Of a stretch of DNA of 64,000 bases, positions 28,513-36,718 are shown piece by piece. Under the pieces are notes generated by a model. The model searched no databases. It saw only the letters and a list, made by a program, of their open reading frames with translations, and was not told where the DNA came from. Numbering within the stretch: position 1 is the first letter of the stretch; each line of letters begins with the position of its first letter. Position numbers and translations under genes: made by a program. Source of the stretch: Egicoccus sp. AB-alg6-2 (lineage in GTDB: Bacteria; Actinomycetota; Nitriliruptoria; Nitriliruptorales; Nitriliruptoraceae); NCBI RefSeq assembly GCF_041821025.1, contig NZ_JBGUAY010000003.1:62001-126000 (forward strand). Direction: 5' to 3'.

Positions 28513-31500
28513 TCAGCCGCGGACCGGCTCCTCGACCGCTTCGGCATCGACCACGGCCTCGGTCGGGGCATCGCTGGCGCGGTCCTCGAGCGCGGCGACG
28601 GCCGCCGGCGTCCGCAGCCGCTCGGCGACCACCTTCGTGACGGCGTCGGGCCCCATCGTGACGCCGTACAGGACGTCGGCGATCTCCATCGAGCGCTTCT
28701 GGTGGGTGACCATGATGATCTGGGCGTGGCCACGGAAGCTGCGCACGACCCGCAGGAGTCGCTGGAGGTTGACGTCGTCGAGGGCGGCGTCCACCTCGTC
28801 GAGCACGTAGAACGGGCTGGGACGGGCGCGGAAGATCGCGAAGACGAACGCCAGGACGGTCAGCGAACGCTCCCCACCGGAGAGCAGCGAGAGGCGGGTC
28901 ACCTTCTTGCCCGGCGGCCGCGCCTCCACCTCGATGCCGGTCAGCAGCAGGTCGTCGGGGTCGGTCAGGACGAGGCGACCATGGCCACCGGGGAACACCG
29001 TGGCGAAGGTGAGCTCGAACTCGCGCGCGATGTCGTCGTAGGCCTGCCGGAAGACCTCGCGGATCCGGTCGTCGACGGCGACGACGACCTCCTCGAGATC
29101 GCGTTTCGACCGGCGCAGGTCGTCGATCTGGTCCGACAGGAACGCGTGCCGTTCCTCCAGTGCCTTGAACTCCTCGAGGGCCAGGGGGTTGACGCGACCG
29201 AGCAGCCCGAGCTTGCGCACGAGCACGTCCTCGCGCTCGGTGAGCGCCGCCTCGTCGTAGTTGCCCGCATCCGGGTGCTCGGCGCGAACCTCGTCGGGGG
29301 CGAGCGAGAACTCGCTGCGAAGGCGGTCGACGACCTGCTGCAACCGGTTGGCGACGTCGGCACGGCGCAACTCGGCGGCGTGGCGGCGCTCCTTGAGCTC
29401 GTCGCGTGCGCCGGTGGCCTGCCCGACCGCGTCCCGGACCCCTGCCAACCCGCCTCGGACGCGCGACAGTTCCGCCTGCACGTCGTCGCGGTCGGTCGCG
29501 GCAGCCGCGATGGCGCGCGCCAGGGCCTCGGCGGCGTCGCGAGCGACCAGCGCCAGCTCCCCGCAGCGCACGATGCCCTGCCGGCGCGCCTCGCGGCGGC
29601 GGGCCGCGTCGGCGAGGGCGGCCTCGACCTCCTCGGCCTCCTGGCGCAACGCGTGGGCCTGCAGCTCGAGGTGACGGACCTGCTCGGTGGTGCGTTCGAG
29701 TCGCACCCGCGCCTCGAGCTCCCGTTCGCGTGCGCGCTCGACCTGTTCGTCGAGCTCGAGCGCGGTCTCGTCGGGTCCTTCGTCGACGTCGTCGTCGGCA
29801 GGGACGTCGGGTCCGCGGCTGTTGAGCTCGGACAGTGACGCCCGGTCGCGTTCGAGCACCGCGGCGAGCTCGTCGCGTTGACCGGCGACGATCCCCCGCT
29901 GGCTCGAGAGGGTGTTGAGCTCCTTGTTGAGCCGCGCGAGTCGTTCGGCCGCGCCGGTGATCGCCGCGTCGGACTCGTTGATGCGGTCGGTTGCGGCGGC
30001 CAGCTGCCCGCGCGCGTCACGAAGGGCGGCGTCGGCCGACGTCCGCTCCTCGCGCAACGCATCCAGACGGGCGCCGAGTCGGGCGGCCTCGCGCTCGGCG
30101 TCGTCAGCGGCCGTGGCGGTCAGCACGGCGGAGCGCTCGGGGGACGCGCCGCCACGGAAACCGAACGGTCCCGCGACGTCGCCGTCGGGGGTCACGAAGG
30201 TGAGATCGGGTGCGTCGGCGTGCAGGGCGACGGCACGTTCCCAGTCCGGGACCACCCACGTCCCGGCCAGCACCTTCTGGAGCGAGGCGACGACCGCGGG
30301 TGCCTCCTCGACGCCGGACGCCGGGGTCAGCAGCTCGGCGACGGCGACGGCACCGGCCGCGTCCAGCCGGGCGCGAAGGTCGGGATCGGTCGTCCCCGCG
30401 ACGGCGCCCCCCCGTGCGGCGAGGACGGTGGCCGGGCCCGGCGTCGCGTCGCGCAGCCAGGCGACGGCGTGGCGGGCAACGTCGACGGACCGGACGACCA
30501 CGGCCTCCCCGAGTGGCCCGAGCGCCGCGGCCAAGGCGGCGTCGTTCCCGCCCTCGACGCGGACGTGGTCGGCGACCTGGCCGAGTACCCCGTCGAGGTC
30601 GGCCGCGAGCAGTGCCGCGCTACCGCCGCCGGTCTCGGCGAGGGCGGCACGCAGCGCCTCGGCACGTGCCGCCTGCGACGATCGCTGGGCGTCGAGCTCG
30701 CGCATCTGCGTGGCGAGGTCGTCGACGACGGCCTCGGCCTGTGCCACCGCGGACTCGGCGGCCTCGAGGGTCGCGGTCAGTTCGACCTCGCTGACGTCGA
30801 GCTGCTGGATCTCGTCCTGGACCTGGGTGACCTCGTGCTCGGCCTCGGCCACGCGGGCGTCCAGGCTCTCGAGCGTCGAAGCGACCCGGGCGAGTTCGGC
30901 CTCGGCGGTGGCGACGGCGCCACGCAGCGCCGAGACCTCGCCCTCCCAGCGCAGTACCCGTTCCCGTTGTTCGGCCCGACGCCGACGTTCGGCCTGCACG
31001 GTCTGTTCGTGGGCGCGGCGGGCCTGCTCGGCCTCACGGCGCGCGGCGCTGGCCTCCTCGAGCCGGTGGCGGTCGGCGTCGCGTTCCTCGCCGCGCGCGT
31101 GGTGGTCGGCTTCGACCCGGTCGGCCTGGGCGCGCAGCTCGGCGGGTGGGCGGCCGGCGAGCGGCTCCTCGGTGTACTCCACCAGGTGGCGCCGCTTTGC
31201 CTCGACGAGATCGATGGTGCCCTTCAGGCGCTCCTGCAGCGACGTCAGCCGGTAGTAGGTCCGCTGTGCCTGCTCCGCCGCGGGCCCGAGGCGGGCCAGT
31301 TCGGCCTCGAGCTCGGCCTGCTGCTCACGGTGGCGAGCGAGGTCGTCCTCGGCCTCCCGCAGCTGCGCCGACGTCTCGTCGTCGTCACGGCCCTCGCTCT
31401 CCGAGAGCCGGGTGAAACGGTCGAGCTCACGGGCGGCCAGCCGCAACTTCACGTCCCGGAGCTCCGCCTGCAGCTGGGCGTAGCGGTCCGCCGCCTCCGC

Positions 31501-32154
31501 CTGCCGTTCGAGCGGGCGCAGCTGGCGTCGCAACTCGCGCAGGACGGTCTTGAGCTTGTCGATGTGCCCGTCGACCTGTTCGAGCTTGCGCAGGGCACGT
31601 TCGCGACGGCGGCGGTGTTTGAGGATGCCAGCGGCTTCCTCGATGTAGCGGCGTCGCTCCTCGGGCTTGGCGTTGAGGATCTCGTCGAGCTGTCCCTGCC
31701 CGACGATGGTGTGCAGCTCGCGGCCCAGTCCGGTGTCCGACAACAGCTCCTGGACGTCGAGGGCACGGACCTCCTGGCCGTTGATCTGGTAGCCGCTGTC
31801 GCCGTCGGCATGGATGGTGCGGGCGACGCGGACCTCGCTGAACTGCGCGGCGCTGGCGGCCGTGCCGAGGCCGGCGCCACCCAACCGGCCGTCGGCGTTG
31901 TCGATCACGATCTCGACACGCGCCTGGTTGGCCCGCGACCGCGTCGGCGAACCGGCGAAGATGACGTCGGACATCGACCCGCCGCGGACCTTCTTCGCGG
32001 AGTGGGTACCGAGCACCCATGCGAGCGCGTCGACCACGTTGGACTTGCCCGAGCCGTTGGGACCGACGATGACGGTGATGCCGGGCTCGACCTCGAGCAC
32101 GGTCTTGTCCGCGAACGACTTGAAGCCGCGCAGGGTCAGGGACCTGAGAAACAC
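28513..32154 (-). CDS. smc: chromosome partition protein SMC
   Basis: Condensin ATPase that organises and segregates the chromosome with ScpA and ScpB. The 1213-residue product has the N-terminal Walker A GPNGSGKSNVVDALAW near residue 32, two long coiled coils (about 165-500 and 665-1030), a Gly-rich hinge (about 505-660, DLDGVLGQVADHV) and the C-terminal signature LSLLSGGERSLTVLA with Walker B YVLDEVDAALDD. GTG 32154, with GGAGGA just upstream, starts the canonical FLRSLTLRGFKSFAD. The tail after the ATPase domain (about 60 residues) is acidic and variable. scpA and scpB are not in the window. Confidence 0.96.
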   Translation of the reverse strand: MFLRSLTLRGFKSFADKTVLEVEPGITVIVGPNGSGKSNVVDALAWVLGTHSAKKVRGGSMSDVIFAGSPTRSRANQARVEIVIDNADGRLGGAGLGTAASAAQFSEVRVARTIHADGDSGYQINGQEVRALDVQELLSDTGLGRELHTIVGQGQLDEILNAKPEERRRYIEEAAGILKHRRRRERALRKLEQVDGHIDKLKTVLRELRRQLRPLERQAEAADRYAQLQAELRDVKLRLAARELDRFTRLSESEGRDDDETSAQLREAEDDLARHREQQAELEAELARLGPAAEQAQRTYYRLTSLQERLKGTIDLVEAKRRHLVEYTEEPLAGRPPAELRAQADRVEADHHARGEERDADRHRLEEASAARREAEQARRAHEQTVQAERRRRAEQRERVLRWEGEVSALRGAVATAEAELARVASTLESLDARVAEAEHEVTQVQDEIQQLDVSEVELTATLEAAESAVAQAEAVVDDLATQMRELDAQRSSQAARAEALRAALAETGGGSAALLAADLDGVLGQVADHVRVEGGNDAALAAALGPLGEAVVVRSVDVARHAVAWLRDATPGPATVLAARGGAVAGTTDPDLRARLDAAGAVAVAELLTPASGVEEAPAVVASLQKVLAGTWVVPDWERAVALHADAPDLTFVTPDGDVAGPFGFRGGASPERSAVLTATAADDAEREAARLGARLDALREERTSADAALRDARGQLAAATDRINESDAAITGAAERLARLNKELNTLSSQRGIVAGQRDELAAVLERDRASLSELNSRGPDVPADDDVDEGPDETALELDEQVERARERELEARVRLERTTEQVRHLELQAHALRQEAEEVEAALADAARRREARRQGIVRCGELALVARDAAEALARAIAAAATDRDDVQAELSRVRGGLAGVRDAVGQATGARDELKERRHAAELRRADVANRLQQVVDRLRSEFSLAPDEVRAEHPDAGNYDEAALTEREDVLVRKLGLLGRVNPLALEEFKALEERHAFLSDQIDDLRRSKRDLEEVVVAVDDRIREVFRQAYDDIAREFELTFATVFPGGHGRLVLTDPDDLLLTGIEVEARPPGKKVTRLSLLSGGERSLTVLAFVFAIFRARPSPFYVLDEVDAALDDVNLQRLLRVVRSFRGHAQIIMVTHQKRSMEIADVLYGVTMGPDAVTKVVAERLRTPAAVAALEDRASDAPTEAVVDAEAVEEPVRG

Positions 32155-32271
32155 GCTTCCTCCGTCGGACGCGCGCACGGCGCCGGTCGGCTGCGGCTCA
32201 CCGTCGGCGGGCGCCGGTGAGCGCGTTCTTGGGGAAGCGCCGGCAACGACGTGCGCGGCGACGAGAGCGGG

Positions 32272-32803: not shown

Positions 32804-33649
32804 TCAGATCATGCACTGGGGGCAGTGGAAGGTGTAGATCCCCTTCTTGATGCGGGTGCGTGCGATCGGCTGCCGGCAGCGGTGGCACGGCAGTCCCTCG
32901 CGACCGAAGACGTGCAGGTGTTCGGCGGCCTCGCCGTCGTCGTCGACGCTGGTCTCGGCGTCGGACTCGTCGAGGCCCGAGCCCGCGGCCTTCATCGCGG
33001 CCTGCAGGACCTCCTGCATGGCGCGGTACAGGCGGCGGACCTCCTGGGTCGACAACGACGCCGAGGACCGGTCGTGGCGGAGGCCGGCCTCCCACAGGAT
33101 CTCGTCGCTGTAGATCGGCCCGATGCCCGCGATGACGCTCGGATCGGTCAGCAGCAGCTTGAGCGGCTGGTCGGCGGCCTGCAGGAAACGGCCGAACTCC
33201 ATCCAGGTCGGGTTGTCGTCGAGCGGGTCCAGCGCATCCGGCGCGACCTCGGCGACCTCGAGCGCCTCCGCGGTGGCGACCACACCGGTCCGGGCGCTGA
33301 CGTCGGCGCCGGGTTCCGAGAGGTGGATGGCCCCTCCCACCGTGAAGCTGACGGCGAGATGGGTGTCGCCGCCGGGCGCCTCGTTGGCGGTCTCGCGGTG
33401 CAGATACCCCGAGTCGCCGGGATCGATGATCCAGGTGCGTTCGTCGTCGAGGTCGAGGAACAGCACGCGCCCACGACGCCGGGCCGCCTCGACCTTGCGA
33501 CCGACGAGGGCCTTGACGAAGTCGGGACGCTTGCTGTGGAACGGCGTCACGAGCGCGGCGGTCTCGACGATGACGTCCTTGACCTTCTTGCCGACGACCT
33601 CTTTCTCGAGGTCCTTGCGCAACACCTCGACCTCGGGCAGTTCAAGCAC
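32804..33649 (-). CDS. MutM-locus Fpg/Nei-fold protein lacking the catalytic residues
   Basis: Occupies the usual mutM place beside rnc and has the family layout: N-terminal beta sandwich, helix-two-turn-helix around GIGPIYSDEILWEAG, and a zinc finger CHRC...CPQC at the end. But residue 2, the catalytic Pro of Fpg (MPELPEVE), is Leu (MLELPEVE). The Lys57 equivalent is Arg (RRRGRVLFL), the GVGNIY Asn is Pro (GIGPIY), and the zinc-finger Arg258 is Ile (GIYTFHC). GTG 33649 has GGGAGG six bases upstream, so the start is secure and Leu2 is real. It probably still binds DNA; formamidopyrimidine glycosylase activity is doubtful. It could be a known Pro-less subfamily. Confidence 0.85.
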   Translation of the reverse strand: MLELPEVEVLRKDLEKEVVGKKVKDVIVETAALVTPFHSKRPDFVKALVGRKVEAARRRGRVLFLDLDDERTWIIDPGDSGYLHRETANEAPGGDTHLAVSFTVGGAIHLSEPGADVSARTGVVATAEALEVAEVAPDALDPLDDNPTWMEFGRFLQAADQPLKLLLTDPSVIAGIGPIYSDEILWEAGLRHDRSSASLSTQEVRRLYRAMQEVLQAAMKAAGSGLDESDAETSVDDDGEAAEHLHVFGREGLPCHRCRQPIARTRIKKGIYTFHCPQCMI

Positions 33650-33715
33650 CGGGGTCCTCCCTTCTCGGCGCCCCGGGGCCGGGCGCGTGACGCGCTGCCC
33701 GGGGTCGGCCAGAAA

Positions 33716-34447
33716 CTAGCGGACGGCGTCGTGGCCGTCGGCCACGGCGCGGGCCGCCAGCCGCCGGTAGGCCTCGCGGGCGGCCGTCTGCTCGGCCTGC
33801 TTCTTGCTCCGACCGGTCCCGGAGCCGACCACTTCACCGGCGACGAGGACGGTGGCGGAAAAGGTCTTGTCGTGGTCCGGGCCGGTGTCGTGCAGCTCGT
33901 AACGCGGCAGTTGCTCGAACCGGGCGGCGGACAACTCCTGCAGGCTGGTCTTGTAGTCCAGGGCGGCGTCGCGTCCGGCGAGGTCGAGCAGGCGTCGCGC
34001 GAAGAGGCGTTCGACGAGGTCGTAGGCGGTGGCGAACCCGCCGTCGAGGTAGGTGGCGCCGAGCACGGCCTCGAGCGTGTCGGCCAGGATCGAGTCCTTG
34101 TCGGCACCGCCGGAGATCGCTTCGCCGCGCCCGAGCCGAATGAAACGTCCGAGGCCGAGGTCGCGGGCGATCGAGGCCAGCGACTCGGTCTTGACCGCGG
34201 CGGAGCGCACCTTGGCGAGCCGCCCTTCCTGCTCCTCGGGATGGGCGTGGTAGATCTCGTCGGTCACGACGAGCGCGAGCACGGCGTCACCGAGGAACTC
34301 GAGCCGCTCGTTGGGCTCGGCGTGGCCGTTCTCGAACGCCCACGAACGATGGACCAGCGCCTGCTCGAGCAGGGCCGGCTCGTCGAAGTGGACGCCGAGG
34401 AGCGCAGCGAGTTCCGCGGCGGGCGCGAACTCGAGAGGTGTGCTCAC
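33716..34447 (-). CDS. rnc: ribonuclease III
   Basis: Double-strand-specific RNase that processes rRNA precursors and regulates mRNAs. The 243-residue product has the catalytic signature ERLEFLGDAVLALVV, the second acidic site ADTLEAVLGATYLDGG and a C-terminal double-stranded-RNA-binding domain (DYKTSLQELSAARFEQ ... GRSKKQAEQTAAREAY). GTG 34447 has GGAG six bases upstream and lies 13 bases after the rpmF stop, so rpmF, rnc and perhaps mutM form one unit. Confidence 0.95.
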   Translation of the reverse strand: MSTPLEFAPAAELAALLGVHFDEPALLEQALVHRSWAFENGHAEPNERLEFLGDAVLALVVTDEIYHAHPEEQEGRLAKVRSAAVKTESLASIARDLGLGRFIRLGRGEAISGGADKDSILADTLEAVLGATYLDGGFATAYDLVERLFARRLLDLAGRDAALDYKTSLQELSAARFEQLPRYELHDTGPDHDKTFSATVLVAGEVVGSGTGRSKKQAEQTAAREAYRRLAARAVADGHDAVR

Positions 34448-34460
34448 GCGGGCTCCGGGG

Positions 34461-34640
34461 CTACTCGACGTCGAGCACCGTCCGGCCGCCGTACGTGCCG
34501 CAGGTGCCACACACGGTGTGGGGGCGGACCGGCGCCTTGCAGCGCTTGCAGCTGGCGTTGGTCGGGGCGGTCGTGCGCAGCCACTGGGCCTTGCGGTGGC
34601 GCGTACGCGAGCGCGACATCTTCCGCTTCGGGACGGCCAT
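34461..34640 (-). CDS. rpmF: 50S ribosomal protein bL32
   Basis: 59-residue zinc-finger ribosomal protein. It starts MAVPKRKMSRSRTRHRKAQW and has the C+ form with two Cys pairs (CKRC and CGTC). The C+ form implies zinc binding, and no C- paralogue is visible here. ATG 34640 has GGAGAG six bases upstream. It is preceded by DUF177, the standard partner. Confidence 0.97.
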   Translation of the reverse strand: MAVPKRKMSRSRTRHRKAQWLRTTAPTNASCKRCKAPVRPHTVCGTCGTYGGRTVLDVE

Positions 34641-34742
34641 CGGACTCTCCTGGTGGTTCTCGACCCGCACGTCGGCGGGTGTCGGTCGGTCGGGGGCGGC
34701 GTGTGGTGGTCGACACGCGACACGTCGGTTCAACGAGGGAGG

Positions 34743-35500: not shown

Positions 35501-36718
35501 TCAAGCGGCAAGGGTGAGCCGGTGGGCCCAGGCGGTGTGTTCGTCGTAGAGGGTGTGGTGTCGTAGGCAGCCGTGGAGGATGCCCACGAGCCGGTTGCCG
35601 AGGGCGCGTAGGGCGCGGTGGTGGGTGTCACCGGCGGCGCGTCGTTGGTCGTAGAAGGTCCGTGCGCCGGGACTTGCGGTGAGGGCGGCGAATGCCGACA
35701 GGTAGCAGGCGTCGGCGAGGTGCTTGTTGCGGGCGTAGCGGGCGAGCACGACCCGGTGTTTGCCCGAGGCTTTGGTGATCGGTGACGTGCCGGCGTAGTT
35801 CTTGCGAGACTTGGCGGTGTCGTAGCGGTTCGGGTCATCTCCGAACTCTGCGAGCACCCGGGCACCGAGGATCATCCCCAGTCCTGGCAGGGAACGGATG
35901 ATCCTGGCGTCCGGGTGCATCTCAAAACGTTGGGCCAGTTCGTGTTCGAGACCGGCGATCTGGGTCTGCAACTGGCTGATGACCGCGACCGATGCGGCCA
36001 CGATCGTGCTCATCGCGTCCGCGACCAGCGGCGGCGCCTGCAACTGCTCGCTGCGTAGCGCGGTCTGGATCTCCAGCGTTCGGCGCTCGATGTTTCGTTG
36101 CCGGCCTGCGCGGCGCAGCGCCGCGGCGATCTTGGATCGCGACAGCCGTCGGCCCTGTTCAGGACAGGGAGCGATGGACAGGACCGCGAGCGCATCGGGT
36201 GAGCTCAGACTGTCGAACGCTTCGAGCGCGGCGGGGTAGAACTCGCGCAGGGTCGAGCGCAGCTGGTTGGTCTGCCGCTGGCGGGTCCACACCAGACTCT
36301 GGTGTGCCCTGGTGAGCATCTTGACCGCTTCGGCCAGCTCGCTGTCGCCAGCCACCGGACGGTGGTTGTGCCGATCGGTGCGGGCCAGATCGGCCAGCAC
36401 CTTCGCGTCGCCAGGGTCGGACTTCGCGCCCGAGGTCGAGTGCCGCTCGCGGTAGCGCGAGGTCGACTTCGGGTTGACCGCGATCACCTGGTAGCCCGCC
36501 GCGACCAGCGCCCCGACAAACAGGCCCCGGTCGGTCTCGGTCGCCACAACCACGTCGGCGGGGTCCTCGACATGGTCGGCCAGCAGCGCATGGAAACTTG
36601 CGACGCCCTCGACCCCGTCCGCCAGCCGAGCCTTGGCCAGCACACGGCCCTGGTCGTCTTGGACCTGTACGTCGTGGTGGTCCTCTGCCCAGTCGTGCCC
36701 TACGTACACCTCACCCAT
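35501..36718 (-). CDS. IS110-family DEDD transposase (bridge-RNA-guided recombinase type)
   Basis: 405-residue intact transposase. The N-terminal RuvC-like DEDD domain shows Asp9 (VGHDWAED), Glu61 (VATETDRG) and Asp101/Asp104 (SGAKSDPGDAKVLADLA). A long coiled-coil linker (about 190-265) follows. The C-terminal Tnp_20 domain carries RSLPGLGMILGARVLAEFGD and NYAGTSPITKASG, holding the candidate catalytic Ser (Ser312 or Ser318). GGGAGGA lies just before the ATG. No frameshift or stop is seen, so it looks active. Confidence 0.95.
   Translation of the reverse strand: MGEVYVGHDWAEDHHDVQVQDDQGRVLAKARLADGVEGVASFHALLADHVEDPADVVVATETDRGLFVGALVAAGYQVIAVNPKSTSRYRERHSTSGAKSDPGDAKVLADLARTDRHNHRPVAGDSELAEAVKMLTRAHQSLVWTRQRQTNQLRSTLREFYPAALEAFDSLSSPDALAVLSIAPCPEQGRRLSRSKIAAALRRAGRQRNIERRTLEIQTALRSEQLQAPPLVADAMSTIVAASVAVISQLQTQIAGLEHELAQRFEMHPDARIIRSLPGLGMILGARVLAEFGDDPNRYDTAKSRKNYAGTSPITKASGKHRVVLARYARNKHLADACYLSAFAALTASPGARTFYDQRRAAGDTHHRALRALGNRLVGILHGCLRHHTLYDEHTAWAHRLTLAA

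Follow-up and report, generated by a model that had tools for sequence, protein, structure and literature searches.

The 64,000-nucleotide stretch of Egicoccus sp. AB-alg6-2 DNA analysed here (the window) encodes, at 32804..33649 on the minus strand, a 281-residue protein with a GTG start, the Fpg/MutM fold and a degenerate active site, which is referred to here as pseudo-MutM. From sequence comparisons, it is proposed with good confidence that this protein is a catalytically dead Fpg/MutM paralogue, kept by selection and vertically inherited at the ancestral rnc-mutM-smc locus.

Start codon and operon setting

The second codon, CTT (33644..33646, minus strand), encodes leucine (Leu2) at the site of the Schiff-base nucleophile Pro1. 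A GGGAGG motif, read directly from the sequence at 33656..33661 on the same strand, is the likely ribosome-binding site for the GTG start, and between the upstream TAG, 22 codons off, and the conserved LELPEVE this GTG is the sole ATG, GTG or TTG codon. The first-pass annotation had held that the GTG and the GGGAGG fix the start and that Leu2 is no artefact, which is borne out, as there is no alternative start back to the TAG. A misassigned start hiding a proline was rejected on the same ground, the same-family loci that were read having the same Leu start. A sequencing error, chance or a single-strain quirk was also rejected, since the 30 same-family loci read first all start with Met-Leu-Glu-Leu-Pro, and the Leu start is also found on the contigs of 22 named relatives, which are metagenome-assembled Nitriliruptoraceae.

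The upstream neighbour is rnc for RNase III (33716..34723, minus strand), 66 bases away and with a listed open reading frame whose start is possibly too long, and the downstream neighbour is smc (28513..32178, minus strand), followed by ftsY. This arrangement, with rnc upstream and smc downstream, is the usual position of mutM in actinobacteria, in keeping with the earlier description of the site as the standard one, and intact orthologues in related actinobacteria have the same gene order. At all Nitriliruptoria loci tested rnc and/or smc were adjacent, with both neighbours at 57 loci and one at 29, 22 of which end at a contig boundary. In the gap of about 620 bases before smc, the two open reading frames tried had no Pfam match. 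Upstream of the rnc region, a 405-residue open reading frame (window positions 35501-36718, minus strand) resembles, by eye, an IS110-type transposase.

Active site, fold and charge

The reference for the residue comparison was E. coli Fpg from NC_000913.3, in which Lys56 is the residue numbered Lys57 when Met is counted as 1. The alignment agrees with the four substitutions that the first-pass annotation had claimed. These are Pro1 to Leu2, Lys56 to Arg61, Asn168 to Pro178, in the H2TH turn GIGPI (residues 175-179; 33113..33127, minus strand), and Arg258 to Ile271, in the C-terminal zinc finger Cys255-Cys279 (32813..32887, minus strand), both sets of coordinates being computed from the start codon. 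Four further losses, absent from that annotation, are His70 to Asp76, Met73 to Asp79, Arg108 to Gly114 and Phe110 to Asp116. Pseudo-MutM retains Glu2, Glu5, Lys154, Tyr170, Glu173 and the four zinc Cys of the E. coli enzyme. The Lys to Arg change is a mild one in the window protein; across the class, loss of this lysine tells more than loss of the proline alone, because mycobacterial Nei2 requires its Lys51 for both activities (PMC11323726). That 8-oxoG chemistry has been lost in pseudo-MutM is strongly indicated by these comparisons.

The Fapy_DNA_glyco N-domain (71.2 bits, cut-off 25.5) and the H2TH domain (62.3 bits, Pfam cut-off 34.7) of pseudo-MutM both score above their cut-offs. The zinc-finger Pfam model is below its own (11.3 bits against 21.3), yet Cys255, Cys258, Cys276 and Cys279 are all there, so the reported retention of the H2TH and of the CxxC/CxxC finger stands. 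On the NCBIfam bifunctional Fpg equivalog, the protein reaches 168.8 bits, under the cut-off of 212. Its AlphaFold model has a pLDDT of 88.2, with low confidence in residues 225-241, and its best PDB match is the DNA-bound MutM 1r2y (Z 30.0, rmsd 2.4, 264 residues), a structural search that speaks to fold, not function. Pseudo-MutM thus has in common with bacterial Fpg/MutM (E. coli 1k82; Geobacillus stearothermophilus 1r2y) the full-length fold (Z 28-30, 29-31% identity), the H2TH, the CxxC...CxxC finger and the actinobacterial rnc-mutM-smc site. Unlike them, it lacks Pro1, Lys56, His70, Met73, Arg108, Phe110, Asn168 and Arg258, and it is acidic instead of basic.

The window protein has a charge of -13.7 and a pI of 5.1, versus +5.3 and 9.2 for the canonical paralogue of the same genome. 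The median charge and pI are -7.4 and 5.6 in the clade of dead copies described below, and +9.6 and 9.4 in the intact operon orthologues. Most of the lost charge maps to the capping loop, the lesion/intercalation loops and the initial half of the H2TH region, and the zinc finger remains basic in the dead clade (mean +3.3). Halophilic acidification is an unlikely source of the low pI, given that the canonical paralogue of the same genome has a pI of 9.2.

These properties bear on the sensor of the first-pass annotation, a pseudo-MutM that would bind DNA via the H2TH and the zinc finger and recognise a structure or lesion without cutting. The well-modelled whole fold that superposes on DNA-bound MutM, and the finger that is still basic with its four Cys kept, are consistent with such a role. 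However, the DNA- or lesion-contacting N168, R258, K56, R108 and H70 are lost, several of them to acidic residues, the median pI went from 9.4 to 5.6 while that of the same-genome paralogue is 9.2, and the DNA binding of AlkD2, a glycosylase paralogue of a comparable kind, is only weak (PMC4433238). The predicted acidification argues against simple lesion binding, which would be weak or none in pseudo-MutM, and a sensor is possible though rather unlikely. AlkD2 is, like the protein proposed here, a conserved glycosylase paralogue, which lost base excision and most DNA binding and kept its fold (PMC4433238); it differs in its unrelated HEAT-repeat fold and in that its loss was established by experiment, while that of pseudo-MutM is deduced.

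Distribution, tree and selection

The orthologue is present in 63 of the 66 Nitriliruptoria genomes, and the three without it are 59-89% complete. Pro1 is missing in 61 of the 62 class loci read, with Leu, Thr, Ser or Met instead; outside the window's own family, residues 2-3 are mostly Thr-Gln, Thr-Tyr, Thr-Glu, Ser-His or Ser-Gln. The sole class locus with Pro (L074, G001:C2) belongs to the window's own family, within the Leu2 clade, and starts with MPEL, the rest of its pocket staying lost. Elsewhere in the phylum, four further family-level groups (f6, f17, f65 and f68) have dead operon copies, in which Pro1 is often kept though the pocket is lost, and part of one dead family keeps both Pro1 and Glu2 (e.g., L113, MPELPEIE). 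Residual AP-lyase activity is possible in the L113-type copies and in L074, because Pro1 is kept in them (in the L113 type together with Glu2). Three rnc-smc loci of family f17 (G091:C468, G077:C142 and G104:C164) have two Fpg-like genes close together, and the one that was read is dead.

When the catalytic columns are left out of the tree, the dead copies fall into two groups, one of 50 rows (SH-aLRT 91) and one of 3 rows, each lying within the intact operon orthologues. A single dead clade has an AU p of 0.56, so one origin is not rejected despite the two groups. Pseudo-MutM itself falls within the operon clade (SH-aLRT 98) and is separate from the clade of second-locus Fpg proteins.

In 45 intact operon orthologues, eight sites (E2, K56, H70, M73, R108, F110, N168 and R258) show little or no variation. 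In the 50 sequences of the dead clade, they are retained in 56% (E2), 10% (K56), 10% (H70), 0% (M73), 6% (R108), 0% (F110), 2% (N168) and 4% (R258). The other 34 invariant columns are kept at a median of 96% in the same clade (Fisher p 1.4e-6 against the eight sites), a contrast that is partly built in, as the label "dead" uses seven of the eight tested residues, while the taxonomic and tree groupings are independent of it. The positions of Lys56, Met73, Arg108 and Arg258 fall within the most variable 12% of columns in the dead clade. Retained there are E5 (98%), Y170 (98%), E173 (100%) and the zinc Cys (90%).

A search for dead-clade-specific residues fixed across the dead clade found none, and for this reason the sequence gives no sign of a new function and a conserved new active site was rejected. 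The Leu2 subgroup has ten fixed residues of its own. The "changed chemistry" of the first-pass annotation fares poorly here, since the pocket positions vary freely between species with no residue newly fixed across the dead clade. An enzyme with altered chemistry would use a different nucleophile, either the Met1 amine or, in relatives, an N-terminal Thr or Ser. Methionine aminopeptidase trims Met ahead of Thr or Ser, which exposes the N-terminal amine, as would be the case in relatives with these residues at position 2. The window protein also retains Glu2 and Glu5, and NEIL3 functions with Val at the nucleophile position (PMC11323726). However, Met-Leu is not expected to be trimmed, so that the amine would be out of register by one residue. 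In addition, the supporting Lys is variable or absent (T, R, V, K and others), many relatives have Gln, His or Tyr in place of Glu2, and there is no conserved alternative site, all of which make such an enzyme improbable. NEIL3 belongs to the Fpg/Nei proteins as well and also has another residue in place of the nucleophilic Pro; it differs in being active with Val2, while pseudo-MutM also lacks the supporting residues.

The whole dead protein is under purifying selection, as dN/dS is 0.06-0.30 in 18 close dead pairs; in six intact pairs it is 0.06-0.27. Conservation in the dead clade is highest over the first 24 residues (MLELPEVEVLRKDLEKEVVGKKVK), which could form a docking surface. A functionless, decaying relic carried along by the operon would account for an active site that is unconstrained and has no new fixed motif. 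It is very hard to reconcile with the low dN/dS, the intact reading frames of near-constant length in about 60 genomes, the kept zinc Cys and the presence of the protein in 63 of the 66 class genomes, one of them small and without any other Fpg/Nei protein, and is considered highly improbable.

Second Fpg copies and the proposed role

The first-pass annotation had suggested searching the genome for a second, normal MutM, and one was found. The host genome has five Fpg/Nei proteins besides pseudo-MutM, the best of which is a canonical Fpg (MPELPEVESVRRQL) with all catalytic residues present and 274.1 bits on the NCBIfam model. Of the 66 class genomes, 58 have a canonical Fpg that exceeds the NCBIfam cut-off, and seven of the eight without it are incomplete. 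In G060 (96% complete, 2.1 Mb), the single H2TH-family protein is the dead copy, and there is no other Fpg/Nei. In the other families, a second intact Fpg over the cut-off is carried by 16 of the 18 genomes whose operon copy is dead and by none of the 21 with an intact or Met-type operon copy, an association that, with few independent events, is a pattern and not a test. Two genomes of this comparison have the second, canonical-type Fpg only in separate pieces (G138:C6:38575-39372 and G168:C3:132573-133364), owing to a frameshift or an assembly error.

Here it is proposed that the second Fpg took over the repair of 8-oxoG and FapyG, and that the operon copy may then be viewed as having shed the lesion pocket first and the nucleophile later, an order suggested by the frequent survival of Pro1 in pocket-less dead copies. 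The remaining protein would work without catalysis, most likely as a docking or scaffold protein that uses its kept N-terminal helix (LEKEVVGK), H2TH core and basic zinc finger, although this scaffold mode is put forward tentatively. A bolder version, in which a class-wide, possibly essential, non-enzymatic MutM-derived protein is coupled to RNase III or SMC in a role that outweighs 8-oxoG excision, is judged unlikely.

Non-catalytic roles have a precedent in the Fpg/Nei family in M. smegmatis Nei2, likewise an actinobacterial member, whose in vivo role in crosslink repair is independent of AP-lyase activity (PMC11323726). Unlike pseudo-MutM, Nei2 keeps Pro2, Glu3 and Lys51, is an active glycosylase/lyase and belongs to another subfamily, in the operon lhr-nei2. 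Fpg2 of M. tuberculosis (Rv0944; PMC2734929) is likewise an Fpg paralogue of an actinobacterium that also has an intact Fpg1, and it too lacks the N-terminal catalytic residues; however, it is a truncation at another locus, with a full-length gene in M. smegmatis and M. avium, whereas pseudo-MutM is a full-length protein that occurs class-wide and occupies the mutM site itself.

A related clade of otherwise intact Fpgs comprises fourteen operon proteins of families f12 and f48 (L115, L118-L120, L122, L124-L127, L130, L132, L133, L136 and L137) that start with Met-Glu-Leu-Pro-Glu, Pro1 being deleted and Met1 standing in its register. In L122 and L133, for example, the codon just before the start is a stop. 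These proteins have K56, H70, M73, R108, N168 and R258 all intact, with F110 replaced by Leu in one, and each is the only Fpg over the NCBIfam cut-off in its genome. From their sequences, they may be active with the N-terminal Met as the nucleophile.

A search of the open-access literature found no earlier report of the dead-MutM group. Three dead copies pass the NCBIfam Fpg cut-off, and databases would label some of the dead copies as "bifunctional Fpg/AP lyase"; if these are truly dead, 8-oxoG repair is assigned to the wrong gene in these organisms. The question of Fpg/Nei function beyond catalysis has already been raised by Nei2 and NEIL3, and a glycosylase fold that selection maintains in a fixed operon despite the loss of its active site would offer a natural test of the non-catalytic roles of this family.
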